Shown one piece after another: positions 14,324-25,331 of a stretch of DNA of 64,000 nt. The stretch spans positions 1 to 64,000 of the forward strand of contig JANWZA010000011.1 in NCBI GenBank assembly GCA_025054775.1. Direction: 5' to 3'. The stretch's first letter is position 1; each line of letters begins with the position of its first letter. Both the position numbers and the translations under genes were made by a program. The DNA comes from Microscillaceae bacterium. Its GTDB lineage: Bacteria > Bacteroidota > Bacteroidia > Cytophagales > Microscillaceae. The notes beneath the pieces are model-generated. The model was given only the letters and a program-made list of their open reading frames with translations, was not told the DNA's origin and searched no databases.

Positions 14324-14560
14324 TAACTTTGCTATAAGATACAAAAACTAAACAAAGTAAAACTTCAGCATATTTAAATTAAGAGCACGAATAAACCTAA
14401 TCAACAATACATTGCGTATTTAGCTAAAAAGTAAAGTTCTAAAAAGAGAGTAAAAATGGATGATATTTTTACTCATGTAAGGATTTTACGCCAAACTTGT
14501 TACTTTTCATTTGGATTTCGTATTAAAATAAAATACCAAACATGTCTAAGAGTAGTTTAA
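14324..14560 (+). promoter_or_regulatory. Promoter element and ~200-base leader with small upstream frame for the giant surface gene
   Basis: TAACTTTG at 14324-14331 is a good -7 element; the -33 element is not clear. It implies a leader of about 200 bases. Within it, an inverted repeat GTAAAAAT...ATTTTTAC (from 14450) overlaps the ATG of a 34-codon frame, 14456-14560. That frame runs past the start codon of the giant gene at 14542 and overlaps it in another frame. The leader could couple or limit translation of the large protein. This is seen in sequence, but its function is inference. Confidence 0.4.
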
Positions 14561-17500
14561 TGAGTAGTTTATTTGATATTGACAAGAATATTACAAGAAA
14601 TTTTAGGTATATGAAACCACTTGATTATCCTACTATTGCTAAGGCCTGCTTTTGGTGGGTTGCCTTTACTTTCTACTTATTTTGGGTATCCTCTTTGGGC
14701 ACGGTTGAAGTAAAAGCACAACATCAAATTCCACCTTGTCAAGTGCGTGCACCAGGATTACCACATAGACCAATTCGTCCCGAAAACCTAACTGCTTTAG
14801 GGGATAAACTAATATTTAAAGGATTTAGGCTAGGGCGAGGTTTTGAACCTTTTGTGAGTAGCACATGCTCAGCAGATACTTTGAGAGATTTAGCAATAGG
14901 GGTTAATAGCAGTAATCCAAGTAGCTTTGTAGTGTTTAACCAAGGAGGTAATAACTACATTTATTTCTCTGCTGATGGACAATGTAGTGAACCTGGCTGT
15001 GATAATCCCTCTAACCTGCTTAGTAATTCTGATTTATGGCGTACTGATGGCACATACGCAGGGACGATTCGCATAAAACGTATCAATCCAGGAGCTTCTG
15101 CTACTTCAGGCATGGTGAGCCTGATTACAGTGGTAGGTAACAAGCTCTTCTTTAGAGCCAATGGGCAAGTACCTTCTGCAACAGGTGTGGAACTTTGGGT
15201 AAGCGATGGCACTTCGGCAGGTACTAATTTGGTGAAAGATATTCGGCCAGGTCCACCAGGCTCTGATCCACAACATCTTACAAGTGTATTCATAGGAACC
15301 AGCCACAAACTCTTCTTTACTGCAGACGACGGCACACATGGTAGAGAACTTTGGGTAAGTGATGGTACAGCAGCAGGCACTTTTATGGTTAAAGATATTC
15401 GCCCAGGGAGTAACTCTTCTAATCCTATTTATCTTATTGACAAAGGCGATGGTGTTTGTTATTTCGTAGCTGATGATGGCTCAGGGACTGCCTTGTGGCA
15501 AAGTGATGGTACTGCAACAGGCACTTCTAAAATTATTAATATTTCCATTGATACTACCGTAGGGATTATCAACTCAGGAGGTATCTTATACTTTGCCTCT
15601 ACCGATGCTGCAGGCAAAGAACTTTGGCGAAGTAATGGACAAGCCGCAGGTACAACCCGTGTATGCGATATAAACCCTGGCCCAGGGAGCTCAAACCCAA
15701 GAAATTTCTCTGATGTGAATGGTATTTTATATTTTACTGCTGACAATGGTACAGATGGTGAAGAGTTATACCAAACTAACGGAATTAATTGTGCGGGAAC
15801 TATCCGTGTAAAAGATATTAGACCAGGACCGCAAGGTTCGGATATCATAAATATTAAAGCTGTAAATAACCCGCAAAATCCAGGATCTACCCTTATTTAT
15901 TTCTTTGCTGATAGTGATGGTACAGGACGTAGACTTTGGAAAACCGATGGTACAGAAGCAGGAACGGTACTGGTGTGGCCTCCTTTGTCAAATACACAAA
16001 CTCTCAGTGAGGTAGGGGAAATCACCGATGTAAATAATGCAGTATATTTCAGAGCCAATTTGGGTTCTTCTCCATTGGGTGCCGATCTATATAGACTCAA
16101 CCCTTGCAATACGGCCACTTTGACTTATCCCTCTACGATATGTGTAGGTTCTGGGAATGTTAATCCTACTCTCGTAGGACCCACGGGAGGAACTTTCTCT
16201 TCAAGTTCACCGAATTTAGTAATTAACAATGTTACAGGAGTAATCAACGCTAATGCGAGTATTATCGGAGGACCTTACACTGTTACTTACACTGTTACGG
16301 AGAATGGTTGTGTAATTACAGCACAATTTAGCGTAACTGTAGTAGGAGGTGTAAATACTGTTCGCAATGTCTCTACTTTGGCAGGAAATGGCACGCAGGG
16401 CTTTACTAACGGAGTCGGCACTGCTGCGACTTTTAACTTCAACCCTCTCTCTACACCTACGGGTAGTATAATTTTTGATGGTGCTATAGGATTAGCTTTT
16501 TCGCCTTCACAAGATACGCTCTATGTAGCAGATGAACTCAATAATGCTGTACGTAGAATAATTGTAAAACCTGGTCCGAACTATGGTCAAGTAACTACTT
16601 TAGCCGCAGGCTTCAATCGCCCTACTGGGGTAGCTACTGATGCACTGGGCTATATCTATGTAGCTGACAAAAATAATAACCAAATCAAGCGAGTAACTAC
16701 CACAGGAGTAGTTACTACTATTGCAGGGCAAGTTGCAGGAGGCTACCAAGACGGACCTGCTGCTACTGCACTTTTCAATCAACCCTCTGATTTAGCAATA
16801 GATTTTATCGGAAATATCTACGTAGCAGATAAAGAAAACCATCGCATACGAAAAATTGCTCCCGATGGTACGGTAAGTACTATTGCTGGAAATAACTCAG
16901 CTACTTTTCAAGATGGCGTAGGCACGGCTGCAAGTTTCTTCTCGCCCACAGGCATTGATATTGATTTGCAAGGAAATCTCTACGTAGCAGATAGACGTAA
17001 CCACAGAATTAGGAAAATTACTCCTGATGGTACAGTAACTACCATAGCAGGAGTAAGCGCAAGCGGACCTTTGGACGGACCCGTGAATACGGCACAACTC
17101 AACTTCCCCTCTGATGTAACCTTAGATTATTTGGGTAACATTTACATAGCAGACCGATCCAATAATCGCATTCGTTTATTAGCCAACGGACAAGTAACCA
17201 CTTACGCAGGTGATGGAACTGGACCTTCAGGAGCAGGGACAAACTTTGCCGACGGACAAGCCAGTGCAGCTAAATTTGCCTACCCTAGTGGTATTATAAG
17301 TGATGTAAACGGTAGGATTTATGTAGGAGACAGAAATAACCACCGTGTACGCTTAATTACTACAAACAATAACCTTGGCACGATGGGGGTTATCAATGGA
17401 GCAAATTTTGTTTGCCGTGGCACAAGCGGAACACTCACTATTACAGGCTACCCTAACGAAGGTGTAAATACCCTTGCGTTAGCTACGTGGCAACAAAGCA

Positions 17501-20500
17501 CAGACTTTGGGCAAACTTGGACCGATATACCAGGTACTGCTAACCAAGCAACATATAACTACACTAATATCCAGCAAACAACTATCTTTAGGGTAATGGT
17601 TGCCCAAGGTACGTGTACACCAACCCCTTCCAACTATGCTACTGTGGTAGTGAGCGAGCCTACTACTCCTACGGTAGCTAATCCGAATATAACTATTTGT
17701 GGTGCAGGTAATGTTACTATGACCGCTACAGGTGGAAGTAACGGTACTTATCGTTGGTATAGCGTACCCACGGGAGGCTCACCTATTAGCGGTTCTCCAA
17801 CCACAGGTACTTATACTACTTTCGTATCAGCTAATACTACTTTTTATGTAGCCATCAATAATGGCAAGTGTGAAAGCCCACGAGTAGCTATTAATGTAAC
17901 GGTTCTTCCACCAATTACTCCTGTTATTACTCTGCCTAGCCCCAATATAGCTTGTCCTGGCTCACCTGTACAATATACCGTAACCGCTTATCCTGGTGGA
18001 AGCTATAACTGGTCAATTCTTTCAGGAACAGGGACTATTACTGCAGGAGTAGGCACCCCTACTATTACCGTAGATTGGACTTCGGGAACTTCAGGTACAG
18101 TACAAGTAACAGTAACCGATGCTAACGGTTGTACTGCTACCGTGAATACAACAGCTAACCCAACTAATATTACTTCCCCACCTGCTACACCTGTTATCAA
18201 CTTGCCAAATCCTAATAGTGTTTGTGCTAATTCAAACATTACATACTCCATCAATGCTTACCCACCAGGACATACCTACCTTTGGAGTATTCCTGCTAGT
18301 GAGGGAACTATAGTAGGCAGTGCCACTGGTACAAGCGTAGTAGTAAAGTGGAATAATGGTGCTTCAGGAGTAGTTACAATTCAAGTAACGGATACTGCCA
18401 CAGGTTGTAAATCTACGGCGAGCAATACGGCAAATCCTACTACTGTTATACCTTCTCCTACACCTAATATTACTCCTAATAAGCCAAGTGCTTGTTTGAA
18501 CGGCGAAGTAGTTTACACTACTCCTAATTCTTCTAATACTTTCACTTGGTCAATCATAGGGGGACAAGGAACCATCGTTTCAGGACAGGGTACCAACTCT
18601 ATTACCGTACAATGGACAGGAGGCACCGTAGGTACGGTTCAATTAGTAGAGGCTAATCCTAACTGTTCGGTTACAGTTACCAATACTTTACCTATTAATA
18701 CGCCTCCTACCACTTCCATAACACCCTCACTCACACAAGTTTGTTTGGGTAATAGTGTAAATTATACTGTACCTCCTATCGCGGGGGCTACCTATGCTTG
18801 GAGTATCTTAAATGGAACAGGAACTATTACAGGACAAGGTACAAATCAAATTACCGTACAATGGACAGGTGGCACAAGCGGCGTAGTGCAGGTTGTTGTT
18901 ACGGATGCAAATAGTTGTAGCACTACTGCTTCTAATACATCAAATCCGACAATTCTCCAATCTATCCCCACTCCTAATATTGTTGTGCCTAATCCTAATA
19001 CAGTTTGTGTAGGAGTACCTGTCACTTATTCTACTACTGCGACAGGTAATACCTTTACTTGGTCAATTCTTTCAGGTACAGGTAATATTATTTCAGGGCA
19101 GGGTACCAATCAAATTACGGTAATTTGGACTGCTCCAGGTACCGACGGGGTAGTGCAAGTACAAGAAACAAACTCTGCAGGTTGCTCTGCTACTGTAAAT
19201 TCAAATGCGAACCCTACAACTATTCAGCCTGCGGGAGGTACACTTACACTCACTCAACCTAATCCGAACCAAGTGTGCCAAGGTAGTACCGTACTTTACA
19301 GTGTAAATGGTACAGGTACATTCAATTGGACTATATCAAGCAATGGAACGATTCTCTCAGGACAAGGTACTTACCAAATTGCAGTACGCTGGGATAGCGG
19401 TACGCAGGGAATAGTACAAGTGCAACAAACAGGTGGTTCGGGCTGCCCTGCTAATGCTAATAATTTGAGTAATCCTACGATTATCAATTCACCTGTGGCA
19501 AACAGTATTACCTTGCCAAATCCTAATGTAGTATGTGCAGGAGGTTCTCTAACTTATTCTGTACCTAATGCACCTAATCACACCTATAATTGGAGTATCA
19601 TTAGTGGTGTAGGTACAATTACAGGGCAAGGTACTCACCAAATTTCAGTACAATGGTTAGCGGGTACGCAAGGAATAGTACAAGTAGTGGTTACAAATAC
19701 TAGTACAGGTTGTTCTGCTACCATTAGCAACCAGAGCCAACCTACCACTATCAATCCAATACCAGTAGCTACTTTCTATTTACCAACTCCTAATAGTGTC
19801 TGCCTAGGAGGAAGCTTAAGCTACTCTGTAACCAATATTTCAGGTGCCACCTATCTGTGGTCTATTTTGAATGGTACAGGTACTATTACAGGGCAAGGTA
19901 CAAATCAGATCTCTGTACTTTGGACGGCAGGCACAACAGGCGTAGTGCAAGTGGTAATTACAGCAAGCACAGGCTGCAGTACCACACTGAATAATGCAAA
20001 TAATCCAAGTACACTTAACCCTTTACCTACACCTAACATTACAGCTTCTACATCAAGCGTATGTGTGGGTATCCCAATGACTTACTCTACACCTGCAAGT
20101 GCTAATAACTTTACTTGGTTAATCCTTACAGGAACAGGTACTATCACTGCAGGGCAAGGCACAAATCAAATTACAGTAATTTGGACTGTGGCAGGAACGG
20201 GTACAGTACAAGTGGTAGAAACAGGAGTAGGACCTAATTGCTCTGCAACAGCTAACAACTCCTCTTCTCCTACTACCATCACTAGTAGTCCTTCGCTTAC
20301 ACTTATTCAACCTAACCCGAATCAAGTTTGTCCAGGAGAAACAGCTACTTACAGCGTATCTCCCGCAGGAGTGTATAATTGGACTATCTCCAGTAATGGT
20401 ACTATCCTTTCAGGGCAAGGTACAGAAAGCATTACCGTAAGATGGAATAGTGGCACGCAAGGTATTGTGCAAGTACAACAAACGGGGGGAGGTTGCCCTG

Positions 20501-23500
20501 CCAATGCCAACAATACGGCAAATCCTACTGTAATTCAAAGCCCTACCACAGCGTCTATTACTGTTCCTTCGCCCAATACTGTTTGTGTTGGTAATTCAGT
20601 TAATTATTCGCTACCTAATTTGGCTAATCATACCTACGTTTGGAGTATTTTGAGTGGAACAGGAACCATTACCGCAGGGGCAGGTACCAATCAAATTACC
20701 GTACAGTGGACAGGTGGCACAAGTGGGGTGGTGCAAGCAGTAGTTACCAATACTGCTACCACTTGTGCAGTTACCGTCAATAATAGTTCTCAACCTACTA
20801 TTATCCACCCCGCTGTAAATCAGGTGCTTACTATTAATCCTACCTCTAATCAAGTGTGCAGAAATGGAACGGTTACTTACTCAGTGGGAAGTTTAGCAGG
20901 TGCTACATATAATTGGTCTATTTTGAACGGAACGGGTGACATTGTTGGTCAAGGTACAAATCAAATTACTGTACAATGGACAGGTGGCACAAGCGGCGTA
21001 GTGCAGGTAGTAATTACAGCAAGCACAGGCTGTTCACAAACGTTGAGCAACACGAATAATCCAACTACTATCCATCCTTTGCCCACACCTACCATTACTA
21101 TACCTAATCCTAACTCGGTGTGTGCAGGCGTACCCGTTACCTATTCAGTACCAAGTAGTCCTAATTTATTTACTTGGACAATTACCTCTGGTACAGGAAG
21201 CATCATCTCTGGTCAGGGTACAAATAGCATACAAGTTGTATGGACGAATGCAGGATTAAGTACAGTTCAATTACAAGAAGTAAGTAGTGCAGGCTGTTCG
21301 GCTATAGTGAATACTAATTCTAATCCTACGCAGGTATTGCCTAATAATCCAACTTTAACTATCAATCAGCCAAATCCCAACCAAACCTGCCCTGGCGGAA
21401 CGCTTACTTATTCAGTAACGCCTACAGGTACTTACACTTGGACAGTCTCAGGCAATGGTACTATTCTCTCAGGGCAAGGTACAAATACTATTTCGGTACG
21501 TTGGAATAGCGGTACGGTAGGTCAAGTGAGCGTACAGACTACAAGTACCTCAGGTTGCCCTGCCACAGGAAATAATTTTTCTAATCCTACTACTATTCTC
21601 TCACCTGCAGTAACACAAATTACTTTGCCCAATCCTAATTCGGTATGTGTGGGGCAAAGCGTAACATACGAAGTTCCTAATTTACCTAATCATACTTACG
21701 CTTGGTCTATTTTGAGCGGAACAGGAACTCCCACTACCTCAACCTCAAACCAATTTACCGTTCAATGGACGGGTGGTACAAGCGGCATTGTGCAAGTAGT
21801 GGTTACAAATACAGGTAACAGTTGTGCAATTACATTAAACAACAATGCCAATCCTACTATTATCAACACTATACCTAACACCACACTTACGCAACCCACT
21901 AACAACACGCTTTGTGTGAACAATACGGCTACCTACTCTGTAGGAACAGGCTTTGCTAATTATGTTTGGTCAATATCAGGAGCAGCGGGAACTATTAACG
22001 CAGGGCAAGGCACAAACCAAATTATTGTGCAATGGACAGGTACAGGTAATGGCATTGTTTCGGTAGTTGTAAGCAATACTGCGGGTTGCACCCAAACTTT
22101 GAGCAATTCAGCAAATCCGACTACTATTATCAATGCACCCGCCCCTGCTATTGTGGGAAGCGCAAATGCTTGCTATAATTCTATCGCAACATATAGTATT
22201 AATCCCATACCTGGAACAACTTATACCTGGAGTGTATCAGGTGGTGGGGCTGGCACGAGCATACTCTCAGGGCAAGGCACGAATAGCATTACAGTACGCT
22301 GGGGCAATGTAGGTACGGCAGGTCAAGTATCGGTTATACAAGCCCTTACAGGCACAACTTGTCAAGGAACTGCTACGCTGAATATCAACCTATTACCTGT
22401 TCCACAGCCCACCGTTTCGGCAGTAGTGCCTTCGCAAACTACGGTGTGTGTAAATCAAACAGCGTCGTATCAGTCGCCTAATGTAGCAGGACATACTTAT
22501 TTGTGGGAAGTAACTAATGGTACTATTGCAAGCGGGCAAGGCACTAACGTTGTGAGTATCAATTGGACTACCGCAGGCACAGGCAAAGTAAAACTTACAC
22601 AAACACACCCCAACGGTTGTGCCGTAGCCGATAGTTTGAGCATAACTATCCACGCCTTACCCGCAGCACCTACGGCAAATAACCGAACTACTTGTAACGG
22701 AGTAACCTCTATCAGTCTTATAGCTGAAGAACCCACAGCCGTAAGCTATCGTTGGTACACCGTTCCTAGCGGTGGTACACCCATCGGTACAGGGACAAAT
22801 ACAAATCCCTATGTAGCCACAGGGCTAAACCCAGGTATAAATACTTTCTACGTCTCTGCCGTAAATGCTAATAATTGTGAAGGTAGCCGTACTATGGTAA
22901 CAGTAACGGTAAACAATACTAACTCAGAAGCTAATGTTACTCCTACTATTACGCCTGTCCAAACTTGCAATGCTAATAATACAGGTAGAATTCAACTAAC
23001 AGTAACAGGAGGTAATCCACCTTATACTTTCGCTTGGTCTAATGGGGCTACTACCAAAGATATTGAAAACTTACAAGCGGGAAATTACACTATTACCATT
23101 ACCGACGCAGGAGGTTGTACCACAGTAAGAACTTACAACGTACCTACGCAGCTGAAACAAATTACAGATGCTAAAATAGAGGTACTCTCAGGGCAACCTA
23201 TCGTACAGGATACTATTACGATTTTCAGAGGTGAAAGTGTGCAACTCAAAGCCTCAGCTACTGATGCTGTAAGCTATTTATGGGAGCCCGTCGAACTTGC
23301 TGATGACGCAACCTCTGCAACACCGACTTTCACACCTGAATTTACTACCCGCATAAAAGTTACCATTACCAACGATAAAGGTTGTACAGCAGAGAAATTT
23401 ATCAATATCAAAGTAGAACAATTCGAAATATTTATTCCTAACCTATTTACACCAAATAATGATGGAAAAAATGATCGCCTACGCGTACAAGGTACGAATA

Positions 23501-23718
23501 TTCAAAAAATAGAATTTAAAGTCTTTAACCGACTAGGTGAAATCGTTTATCAAACTAATGATTTAGTAGAAGCTACTCAAATCGGTTGGGACGGAACCTA
23601 CAATGGTAAAGAAGCAGAAAATGATAATTATGTGTGGTCTATTAAAGGAAACTTTATAAATGGACAGCCACTCAAATTCAGAGGAAAAACCTCTGGAAAC
23701 GTAGTACTTATGAGATAG
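14542..23718 (+). CDS. Giant multidomain surface protein, exported by type IX secretion (type B sorting domain)
   Basis: The protein has 3058 residues. A hydrophobic signal segment lies at ~33-55 (ACFWWVAFTFYLFWVSSLG) and ends in KAQ; an internal ATG at residue 24 is an alternative start. Residues ~165-470 hold seven ELWxSDGTxAGT repeats (for example ELWVSDGTSAGTNLVKDI). About 650-945 are six NHL repeats (IYVADKNNNQIKRV, LYVADRRNHRIRKI), enough for one six-bladed propeller. About 1035-1120 is an Ig-like domain, followed by 18 PKD/Ig-like modules of ~88 residues (to ~2690), another Ig-like domain, and a SprB-like repeat (~2810-2870). Residues 2964-3058 are the gliding-motility-associated C-terminal domain (IPNLFTPNNDGKNDRL). 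It is expected to be displayed on the cell surface or released as an adhesin. Its partner sprF-ompA begins 41 bases downstream. Confidence 0.9.
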   Translation: MSKSSLMSSLFDIDKNITRNFRYMKPLDYPTIAKACFWWVAFTFYLFWVSSLGTVEVKAQHQIPPCQVRAPGLPHRPIRPENLTALGDKLIFKGFRLGRGFEPFVSSTCSADTLRDLAIGVNSSNPSSFVVFNQGGNNYIYFSADGQCSEPGCDNPSNLLSNSDLWRTDGTYAGTIRIKRINPGASATSGMVSLITVVGNKLFFRANGQVPSATGVELWVSDGTSAGTNLVKDIRPGPPGSDPQHLTSVFIGTSHKLFFTADDGTHGRELWVSDGTAAGTFMVKDIRPGSNSSNPIYLIDKGDGVCYFVADDGSGTALWQSDGTATGTSKIINISIDTTVGIINSGGILYFASTDAAGKELWRSNGQAAGTTRVCDINPGPGSSNPRNFSDVNGILYFTADNGTDGEELYQTNGINCAGTIRVKDIRPGPQGSDIINIKAVNNPQNPGSTLIYFFADSDGTGRRLWKTDGTEAGTVLVWPPLSNTQTLSEVGEITDVNNAVYFRANLGSSPLGADLYRLNPCNTATLTYPSTICVGSGNVNPTLVGPTGGTFSSSSPNLVINNVTGVINANASIIGGPYTVTYTVTENGCVITAQFSVTVVGGVNTVRNVSTLAGNGTQGFTNGVGTAATFNFNPLSTPTGSIIFDGAIGLAFSPSQDTLYVADELNNAVRRIIVKPGPNYGQVTTLAAGFNRPTGVATDALGYIYVADKNNNQIKRVTTTGVVTTIAGQVAGGYQDGPAATALFNQPSDLAIDFIGNIYVADKENHRIRKIAPDGTVSTIAGNNSATFQDGVGTAASFFSPTGIDIDLQGNLYVADRRNHRIRKITPDGTVTTIAGVSASGPLDGPVNTAQLNFPSDVTLDYLGNIYIADRSNNRIRLLANGQVTTYAGDGTGPSGAGTNFADGQASAAKFAYPSGIISDVNGRIYVGDRNNHRVRLITTNNNLGTMGVINGANFVCRGTSGTLTITGYPNEGVNTLALATWQQSTDFGQTWTDIPGTANQATYNYTNIQQTTIFRVMVAQGTCTPTPSNYATVVVSEPTTPTVANPNITICGAGNVTMTATGGSNGTYRWYSVPTGGSPISGSPTTGTYTTFVSANTTFYVAINNGKCESPRVAINVTVLPPITPVITLPSPNIACPGSPVQYTVTAYPGGSYNWSILSGTGTITAGVGTPTITVDWTSGTSGTVQVTVTDANGCTATVNTTANPTNITSPPATPVINLPNPNSVCANSNITYSINAYPPGHTYLWSIPASEGTIVGSATGTSVVVKWNNGASGVVTIQVTDTATGCKSTASNTANPTTVIPSPTPNITPNKPSACLNGEVVYTTPNSSNTFTWSIIGGQGTIVSGQGTNSITVQWTGGTVGTVQLVEANPNCSVTVTNTLPINTPPTTSITPSLTQVCLGNSVNYTVPPIAGATYAWSILNGTGTITGQGTNQITVQWTGGTSGVVQVVVTDANSCSTTASNTSNPTILQSIPTPNIVVPNPNTVCVGVPVTYSTTATGNTFTWSILSGTGNIISGQGTNQITVIWTAPGTDGVVQVQETNSAGCSATVNSNANPTTIQPAGGTLTLTQPNPNQVCQGSTVLYSVNGTGTFNWTISSNGTILSGQGTYQIAVRWDSGTQGIVQVQQTGGSGCPANANNLSNPTIINSPVANSITLPNPNVVCAGGSLTYSVPNAPNHTYNWSIISGVGTITGQGTHQISVQWLAGTQGIVQVVVTNTSTGCSATISNQSQPTTINPIPVATFYLPTPNSVCLGGSLSYSVTNISGATYLWSILNGTGTITGQGTNQISVLWTAGTTGVVQVVITASTGCSTTLNNANNPSTLNPLPTPNITASTSSVCVGIPMTYSTPASANNFTWLILTGTGTITAGQGTNQITVIWTVAGTGTVQVVETGVGPNCSATANNSSSPTTITSSPSLTLIQPNPNQVCPGETATYSVSPAGVYNWTISSNGTILSGQGTESITVRWNSGTQGIVQVQQTGGGCPANANNTANPTVIQSPTTASITVPSPNTVCVGNSVNYSLPNLANHTYVWSILSGTGTITAGAGTNQITVQWTGGTSGVVQAVVTNTATTCAVTVNNSSQPTIIHPAVNQVLTINPTSNQVCRNGTVTYSVGSLAGATYNWSILNGTGDIVGQGTNQITVQWTGGTSGVVQVVITASTGCSQTLSNTNNPTTIHPLPTPTITIPNPNSVCAGVPVTYSVPSSPNLFTWTITSGTGSIISGQGTNSIQVVWTNAGLSTVQLQEVSSAGCSAIVNTNSNPTQVLPNNPTLTINQPNPNQTCPGGTLTYSVTPTGTYTWTVSGNGTILSGQGTNTISVRWNSGTVGQVSVQTTSTSGCPATGNNFSNPTTILSPAVTQITLPNPNSVCVGQSVTYEVPNLPNHTYAWSILSGTGTPTTSTSNQFTVQWTGGTSGIVQVVVTNTGNSCAITLNNNANPTIINTIPNTTLTQPTNNTLCVNNTATYSVGTGFANYVWSISGAAGTINAGQGTNQIIVQWTGTGNGIVSVVVSNTAGCTQTLSNSANPTTIINAPAPAIVGSANACYNSIATYSINPIPGTTYTWSVSGGGAGTSILSGQGTNSITVRWGNVGTAGQVSVIQALTGTTCQGTATLNINLLPVPQPTVSAVVPSQTTVCVNQTASYQSPNVAGHTYLWEVTNGTIASGQGTNVVSINWTTAGTGKVKLTQTHPNGCAVADSLSITIHALPAAPTANNRTTCNGVTSISLIAEEPTAVSYRWYTVPSGGTPIGTGTNTNPYVATGLNPGINTFYVSAVNANNCEGSRTMVTVTVNNTNSEANVTPTITPVQTCNANNTGRIQLTVTGGNPPYTFAWSNGATTKDIENLQAGNYTITITDAGGCTTVRTYNVPTQLKQITDAKIEVLSGQPIVQDTITIFRGESVQLKASATDAVSYLWEPVELADDATSATPTFTPEFTTRIKVTITNDKGCTAEKFINIKVEQFEIFIPNLFTPNNDGKNDRLRVQGTNIQKIEFKVFNRLGEIVYQTNDLVEATQIGWDGTYNGKEAENDNYVWSIKGNFINGQPLKFRGKTSGNVVLMR
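18700..22640 (+). repeat. Four-module super-repeat of ~1056 bp inside the giant gene
   Basis: The ~265-bp modules are not independent copies: they fall into a repeating order of four types. The cysteine codons that open the type-1 modules lie at 18742, 19801, 20857 and 21913, giving spacings of 1059, 1056 and 1056 bases, all in frame. Type 2 modules have linkers such as PLPTPTITIPNPNS and end ...QE; type 3 have QPNPNQVC, ISSNGTILSGQGT and VRW; type 4 have SPVANSITLPNPN, NHTYxWSI and VQW. Three complete tetramers run from about 18.70 to 21.87 kb, and a partial, more diverged fourth follows to about 22.64 kb. Successive duplication of a four-module cassette explains this pattern. Confidence 0.85.
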
Positions 23719-23759: not shown

Positions 23760-25331
23760 ATGATATTTCACCACAAAGGTATGCTTGTCAAATTATTATA
23801 CATAACAAGCATGCTTTTTTCAACCTTTTTCTCACTTCAAGGGCAAGATGTTAATTCTTTTTCACTTTTTCATCTTGCTCCTTTTCAGACTAATCCAGCC
23901 CTGCTTGCCACTAGCAATCAAATGCAATTTCTATTTAACTACCGAAGTCAGTTCATTAATGCAGGGCAAGCCTTTGCTACCCCTATGGCTTCCGTTTCTA
24001 TGCCTATCCTGAATAAAGCCAGAGGAAAGCGATATGGGGCAGTAGGCGCTTCTTTTTTAGGTGATAGGGCTGGAGCAAATGGTATTTTGCAAACCAACGG
24101 TGTGAGCCTTGCCGCCGCTTTGAACGTTGATGCTACCTACACACACCATTTTTCATTAGGTCTGCAAGGGGGATACTTCCAGCGAGCTATCAATGCAAAC
24201 CAAATCCAAACCAGCGATATGTACGTACCTGGCTTGGGGGTAGTATCCAGTACCACCGAGCAGTTTGATAATCTTACACGCTCCTTTCCTATTTTCAATG
24301 CAGGGGCTTTATGGTATCATACAGGCTACGACACTGACTCTGCCGAAGTAGTGAAAGCTTATATCGGAGCAAATTTTCAAAGTCTAAATCAGCCCGATAT
24401 TTCTTTTGTAGCTCAAAATTACGATAAACTTTCTTTGAATTATATCATTACAGGAGGCGTAAATTTGTTTCAAAGTCAAGTCTTTGGGGTTTCGCCTAAC
24501 TTTCGTTGGGTACAGCAACGTGCTGCTAGTAAATTGAATATAGGGGCATTATTAAATTACAATATCCATGAAGAAATGGGCTTCCTTAAAACAGGAAATA
24601 TCGGTTTGGGGGTCTGGTATAGTAATACAAGCAGTATGGTACTCGGTTTGCAAGTAGATCAACCAAGCTATGCAATCGCTTTTAGTTATGACTTAGGTAC
24701 AAATAGTGCTATTAATTATCTAGGCGGAACAGCAATCGAACTAGCAATAGGAGTGAGACTAGGTAATAAAAAATTAAAGCGACCTGACAAACAACTACAA
24801 GAGAAAGAGCCTGAAAAAGAAGATAAGTTACCGCAGATTATAACCAAAGATACCATTAATACCGATGAAGCTACCTACATCGTGCAAGTGGTAAGGAAAG
24901 GAAAAGAAATTGTAAAAACAGACACTTTAGAACGCATACCTGTTGAAAGTACGGACGCTGAACCCTCAGAACAAGACCTAGAAATTTTTAAGCGTAAAGC
25001 TACTTTTTATTACACAAGTTACGATATTAACCGCTCTTCTGAAATACTATTGAATGAAATAGCTCGTGTCATGCGTAAGTTTCGCATTATCCATATTCAA
25101 GTAGAAGGACATGCCTGTAACATAGGTAAGAACGAAGAAGATAACAAAGCCCTCTCCTTAAAACGTGCCGAATCAATTAAAAACTTCTTAGTTAAAAAAG
25201 GCATCAACCCAAACAGAATTAGCACCGTAGGTTTTGGTACACAAATGCCTCTCTTACCTAACGATACAGAGTATGGCAGAATACAAAATCGCAGAGCAGA
25301 ATTTAAGGTTACACTAAAAAAAGTAAGATAG
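23760..25331 (+). CDS. PorP/SprF-type outer-membrane protein fused to an OmpA peptidoglycan-binding domain
   Basis: The protein has 523 residues. An N-terminal signal peptide (LLYITSMLFSTFFSLQGQ) is followed by a PorP/SprF beta-barrel-like domain to about residue 335 (LFHLAPFQTNPALLA, NYRSQFINAGQAF, GAVGASFLGDRAG). A charged Lys/Glu linker (~340-400) leads to an OmpA-like domain at ~415-520, with the binding pattern IQVEGHACNIGKNEEDN and NRISTVGFGTQMP...NRRAEF. SprF proteins pair with type IX-secreted proteins that carry type B sorting domains and are needed to display them. The pairing with the giant gene 41 bases upstream fits that rule. A TATTTTTG box at 23724-23731 may add an internal promoter. 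The OmpA fusion would tie the export partner to the cell wall. Confidence 0.88.
   Translation: MIFHHKGMLVKLLYITSMLFSTFFSLQGQDVNSFSLFHLAPFQTNPALLATSNQMQFLFNYRSQFINAGQAFATPMASVSMPILNKARGKRYGAVGASFLGDRAGANGILQTNGVSLAAALNVDATYTHHFSLGLQGGYFQRAINANQIQTSDMYVPGLGVVSSTTEQFDNLTRSFPIFNAGALWYHTGYDTDSAEVVKAYIGANFQSLNQPDISFVAQNYDKLSLNYIITGGVNLFQSQVFGVSPNFRWVQQRAASKLNIGALLNYNIHEEMGFLKTGNIGLGVWYSNTSSMVLGLQVDQPSYAIAFSYDLGTNSAINYLGGTAIELAIGVRLGNKKLKRPDKQLQEKEPEKEDKLPQIITKDTINTDEATYIVQVVRKGKEIVKTDTLERIPVESTDAEPSEQDLEIFKRKATFYYTSYDINRSSEILLNEIARVMRKFRIIHIQVEGHACNIGKNEEDNKALSLKRAESIKNFLVKKGINPNRISTVGFGTQMPLLPNDTEYGRIQNRRAEFKVTLKKVR

Follow-up and report, generated by a model that had tools for sequence, protein, structure and literature searches.

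The Giant Gene and Its Presumed Partner

The window (the whole stretch of DNA analysed, positions 1 to 64,000 of contig JANWZA010000011.1 from a Microscillaceae bacterium) contains a giant ORF predicted to encode a secreted T9SS type B surface protein. It is adjoined by a gene for a PorP/SprF-family outer membrane barrel that carries an OmpA domain in the same polypeptide (Table 1). A signal peptide is likely at aa ~24–60 as read from the sequence, and the start codon is either ATG 14542 or an internal ATG at aa 24. The N-terminal head has two parts, and its ELWxxDGT repeats probably form a beta-propeller. The stalk consists of 18 PKD_6 stretches (Pfam, E = 2.4e-127), which bears out the 18 modules counted in an earlier note on this DNA. 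These modules, m01 to m18, were cut at the first Cys of each. The C-terminal sorting domain scored 50.7 bits against TIGR04131 (cut-off 35) and 49.5 bits against PF13585 (cut-off 27), and the adjoining partner scored 178 bits against TIGR03519 (cut-off 90.55). From its domains and position the PorP/SprF-OmpA protein is presumed to be the cognate shuttle and anchor. Promoter and terminator scans performed no better than shuffles. The sequence TAACTTTG at 14325–14332, upstream of the giant gene, fits TAnnTTTG, the Bacteroidota −7 promoter motif. The same genome encodes a second PKD_6 protein in a 1573-aa frame (L002, G000:C64:8365-8595).

Table 1. Features of the giant gene and the adjoining partner gene (positions are those of the window).
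Feature	Position	Strand	Evidence and remarks
Giant ORF, 3058 aa	14542..23718	+	Predicted secreted T9SS type B surface protein
Head part 1, seven ELWxxDGT repeats	14929..16101 (limits approximate)	+	NCBIfam TIGR04534, E 1.4e-102, 7 stretches
Head part 2, NHL beta-propeller	16360..17361 (limits approximate)	+	PF01436 E 9.2e-36, TEN_NHL; NHL propellers in PDB
Ig_7 domain between head and stalk	17659..17910	+	PF19081, aa 1040-1123
m01-m03, PKD_6, not in the four-module cycle	17911..18699	+	Module identities, tree
Cassette 1, m04-m07 (types 1, 2, 3, 4), 353 aa	18700..19758	+	Identities, tree, permutation
Cassette 2, m08-m11, 352 aa	19759..20814	+	Identities, tree, permutation
Cassette 3, m12-m15, 352 aa	20815..21870	+	Identities, tree, permutation
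m16, diverged type-1 module opening an incomplete fourth cycle	21871..22128	+	55% identity to m12; m12+m16 support 82/85
m17 and m18, old stalk-base modules	22129..22653	+	Best matches in other species
T9SS type B C-terminal sorting domain (CHU_C / TIGR04131)	23431..23649	+	Pfam, NCBIfam
PorP/SprF-family outer membrane barrel and OmpA peptidoglycan-binding domain, one polypeptide	23760..25331	+	PF11751 E 1.8e-30, TIGR03519 E 2.3e-52, PF00691 E 7.3e-21

A Four-Module Period in the Core of the Stalk

Pairwise comparison of modules m04 to m16 gave a mean identity of 0.63 at an offset of four modules, 0.47 to 0.48 at offsets 1–3, 5, and 6, 0.53 at offset 7, and 0.59 at offset 8. Similarity thus peaks at k = 4 and not between neighbours, the pattern of block-wise domain repeats. 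The offset-4 identity was reached in none of 200,000 permutations of module order. In the maximum-likelihood tree of m04–m16 the modulo-4 labels need three changes, which is the minimum, and clades of adjacent modules were rejected (AU p 2.9e-41 for m04–m07, 3.4e-8 for m08–m11, and 2.5e-5 for m12–m15). In the tree of all 18 modules the same labels need seven changes, so the cycle spans 13 modules and not 18. The earlier note had described an ordered four-type cycle over all 18 modules, with clustering modulo 4 rather than by adjacency as its test; the cycle and the modulo-4 clustering hold for m04–m16 (13 of 18) and do not extend to m01–m03, m17, and m18.

The type-1 Cys codons that it placed at 18742, 19801, 20857, and 21913 (spacing 1059, 1056, and 1056 bases) are correct to the base. 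The first-Cys spacing between successive modules of the other types is 1056/1059 bases for type 2, 1053/1059 for type 3, and 1050/1062 for type 4. Since these spacings are unequal, the cycle length is 350 to 354 residues; the period of four is real and the "exact" ~352-residue period was an overstatement. Tandem Repeats Finder detected no array in the tract, and its sole match was a 12-base repeat at 16274; its maximum period is 500, which puts a 1056-base period out of its reach.

Types 2 and 3 are firm (clade support of 84/92 and 100/99, respectively, in the maximum-likelihood tree). Types 1 and 4 are alike and statistically inseparable: support is 40/26, and the AU test of a type 4 clade (p 0.416) neither shows nor rejects it. 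Module m04 is as close to a type-4 module as to type 1, with 67% identity to m11 (type 4) vs. 60–61% to m08 and m12 (type 1). The four distinguishable types proposed earlier are therefore well supported for two of them and unseparated for the other two. The wording QPNPNQVC / VRW, said to mark type 3 in all three cycles, does so in part: QPNPNQVC is replaced by QPNPNQTC in the third type-3 module, and m17 carries VRW as well. In the tree, the type-3 modules of cassettes 1 and 2 group together, while for types 1, 2, and 4 it is the modules of cassettes 2 and 3 that do so, though weakly. Because the cassette pairings conflict by type, the array is not a clean series of whole-cassette copies.

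Age of the Array

DNA identity between copies in m04–m16 is 46–68%, and the cassettes share 62–64% identity in protein and 62–64% in DNA. Amino acid identity is ~60% within a type and ~48% between neighbouring modules. Where two modules share a residue, they also share its codon with a frequency of 0.48 in same-type pairs and 0.45 in different-type pairs, compared to 0.40 after codon shuffling. The synonymous sites are therefore nearly, not wholly, randomised. The array is old and is not a slippage hot spot at present. No exact repeat in the tract exceeds the 38 bases shared by m04 and m12 at 18856 and 20971, two cycles apart and in register. This match is longer than any repeat in the 1000 codon shuffles (maximum 32) and hints at occasional later gene conversion.

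Short-read assemblies often collapse or expand tandem repeats, and a period produced in this way was considered. The chance of this is negligible: DNA identity between module copies does not exceed 68%, the 38-base repeat is shorter than any common read length, and the ORF is open all the way through. In practice, assembly collapse can be dismissed.

Relatives and the Origin of the Core Modules

A NusA tree groups the genome studied with a family whose member G003 has a NusA identical to that of an uncultured Microscilla sp., which assigns the genome to Microscillaceae, Cytophagales; in the NusA scan the closest named relative was Microscilla sp. (65%). A search of the genome contigs with the PorP protein as query found no relative, an alignment of PorP contained no sufficiently conserved stretch, and a plasmid DNA search gave no match. 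The ELWxxDGT head and NHL propeller are common to five same-family proteins (L045, L046, L047, L058, and L061), and the C-terminus is conserved in L045–L047, L049, and L058. The PorP-OmpA gene adjoins the giant gene in several of these relatives. PKD_6 modules number 11 in L045, 7 in L046, 6 in L047, 18 in L058, and 11 in L061, compared to 18 in the protein studied here. Across genera of Microscillaceae, then, the head, the type B T9SS tail, and the PorP/SprF-OmpA partner are kept while the modules range from 6 to 18.

For each core module (m04–m16) the best match is always within its own protein (scores of 229–338 vs. 145–194 for any relative's module), while for m17 and m18 the closest modules are those of other species and not those of their own protein. 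A search for counterparts of types 1–4 among the relatives' modules found none. It follows that the cycle arose in this lineage, inside an older stalk; types 1–4 are private to it. Domain repeats usually expand by block duplication in mid-array (PMC1553488).

A period test was carried out on 28 giant stalk proteins. Significant periods were 2 (L054), 3 (L053, L055, and L058), 4 (the protein studied and L159), and 5 (L164). L056 shows a weaker period of 2 (p 0.009), three further proteins show neighbour similarity only, and L045, L046, and L047 show no significant period. Since the periods differ between relatives, step size belongs to each lineage and there is no fixed ruler. L159 (G018) and L164 (G055) are giant stalks from other families of the order. 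In L058 (G007), L055 (G008), and L054 (G032) we found copies of 2- or 3-module cassettes with about 85–95% DNA identity over 489–992 bases (992 bp with a shift of 754 in L058, 851 bp with a shift of 762 in L055, and 489–738 bp in L054). These are cassette duplications soon after the event, and ongoing length change is better studied in these three proteins than in the present one. In L049 (G010) a single module is duplicated with 96% DNA identity (ORF aa 539–638 vs. 626–725).

Structure of a Cassette and Similarity to GhpA

Eight Cys residues are invariant in 47 four-module stretches, and this invariance is consistent with one probable disulfide in each module. The AlphaFold2 model of cassette 2 is all-beta (mean pLDDT 94.8). 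Its best fold matches among solved structures are stalk fragments of grappling hook protein A (GhpA), with all four modules aligned (Z 11–13, rmsd 7–8 Å, about 300 residues). A four-module profile matches GhpA of Aureispira with E = 8.8e-246 over 17 stretches, and the stalk at 17911–22653 is clearly homologous to the solved stalk of GhpA (residues 1147–4758). A single-sequence PDB search with m01–m16 missed GhpA, while the profile and a full-length query both matched it. A PDB search with the C-terminal part (m17 onward) gave no match.

GhpA-type hooks are T9SS substrates (PMC11205867), and the strength of the profile match and the GhpA fragments among the closest folds raise the question of whether this protein is a grappling hook for prey rather than a general adhesin. 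We consider this very unlikely. The match lies in stalk modules of a kind widespread in Bacteroidota, and a PDB search with the N-terminal 1123 aa matched NHL propellers; of its 64 hits, the best 60 did not include GhpA. What the similarity establishes is that the stalks are homologous; it does not do so for the complete machine. This giant Cytophagales protein family may nonetheless include undescribed hook-like structures.

A Stalk Probably Lengthened by Tandem Duplication

In our best reading, which we hold to be quite probable, the protein is a T9SS type B surface adhesin whose stalk grew by lineage-specific tandem duplication of a four-module block. The adhesion function is suggested by domain content. 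That the stalk grew as a four-module cassette was duplicated, as first suggested in the earlier note, is well supported by the offset-4 identity, the rejection of adjacency clades, the lineage-private types, and the recent 2- and 3-module duplications in relatives. Its companion proposal, that fibre length changes in steps of ~352 residues as a standing rule, finds no support: the array is old (module DNA identity of no more than 68% and a longest exact repeat of 38 bases), and relatives step by 2, 3, or 5 modules. The block would have been duplicated in mid-stalk in at least two events, leaving three copies and one extra module, and the likeliest route would be unequal homologous recombination with the register shifted by four modules. 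Afterwards the copies would have diverged to near-saturated synonymous sites with the types still recognisable. Unlike neighbours may also lower misfolding between modules (cf. PMC4660218).

That last effect could by itself be thought to generate the pattern, with modules duplicated singly and selection against misfolding of identical neighbours producing the alternation. Adjacent domains in tandem arrays do tend to diverge, probably avoiding misfolding (PMC4660218), and neighbours here are only ~48% identical. Divergence between neighbours alone, however, predicts no strict modulo-4 order, the adjacency clades were rejected, and relatives carry recent blocks of two and three modules with 85–95% DNA identity; we find this account highly implausible. 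It is also rather unlikely, if somewhat less so, that the four-module register is a functional ruler, with a binding or self-assembly face every ~352 residues and the order under selection. The titin A-band super-repeat is a known precedent (PMC10665226, PMC7427331), and the types have remained recognisable (~60% aa identity) despite nearly saturated synonymous sites. Purifying selection on the module fold alone would suffice to keep descent visible, however, and the types belong to this lineage alone. Relatives with the same head and tail differ in register (L058 has a period of 3, L045–L047 have none that is significant), and other giant stalks have periods of 2, 3, 4, and 5. A version in which the ordered types present a repeated site for self-assembly, a ligand, or a glycan every ~352 residues, with the register selected and the step size set at 2, 3, 4, or 5 by lineage, seems to us similarly doubtful. 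We know of no partner with matching spacing for this stalk.

If the duplicated stalk is built and exported like other type B substrates, its sorting domain would direct passage via the T9SS, followed by retention on the neighbouring PorP/SprF-OmpA barrel. OmpA domains bind peptidoglycan, and the OmpA fusion would tie the barrel to it. The 18 Ig/PKD-like modules would form an extended stalk, with the ELWxxDGT and NHL domains at the far end, away from the cell. An Ig-like module is about 4 nm long; each cassette would add roughly 16 nm and the 18 modules would reach roughly 70 nm. Type B substrates rely on shuttles of the PorP/SprF type, and barrels resembling PorP retain them (PMC9143113, PMC12618676).

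Block-wise expansion of domain repeats, including the lengthening of stalks, is already known as a phenomenon. What the present comparison adds is that, in Cytophagales, T9SS stalks grow longer by multi-module blocks whose size varies by protein, with head and anchor constant. Natural variants of 6 to 18 modules with comparable heads and anchors are useful for testing stalk length against surface reach.

Comparison With Known Systems

The Pfam families PF19403–PF19408 were constructed to represent stalk domains in a study of fibrillar adhesins (PMC8286594). The protein studied here resembles the PKD_6 (PF19408) members in its domain family, in a long tandem stalk (18 stretches), and in carrying its other domains N-terminally; it differs in its ELWxxDGT and NHL head, whose adhesive role is putative. 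Ordered multi-module cycles are not described in the portion of that source consulted, and a literature search on ordered super-repeats in adhesins of Bacteroidota gave no specific result. With SprB and other T9SS type B adhesins (PMC9143113, PMC12618676) it shares the type B CTD, an adjoining PorP/SprF-like gene, and a large repetitive build, although the PorP-like partner is here fused to OmpA.

GhpA of Aureispira sp. CCB-QB1 (PDB 9flp, 9fls, and others) has a long tract of homologous Ig/PKD-like modules and the same fold over four modules, and is likewise a T9SS-secreted surface protein of Bacteroidota (predicted in our case). It is larger (5898 aa vs. 3058 aa), and nothing in the studied protein points to its head or heptamer. 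In Periscope Proteins (PMC8201768), too, a rod of tandem folded domains projects an N-terminal part and length varies among relatives. Their repeats are highly identical in DNA and their length varies between strains, whereas the copies here are old and fall short of such identity (46–68% in m04–m16, with no exact repeat longer than 38 bases). The nebulin (unit of 7) and titin super-repeats (PMC1553488, PMC10665226) also grew by several domains at a time in mid-array; here the unit is four PKD_6 modules and the protein is bacterial.
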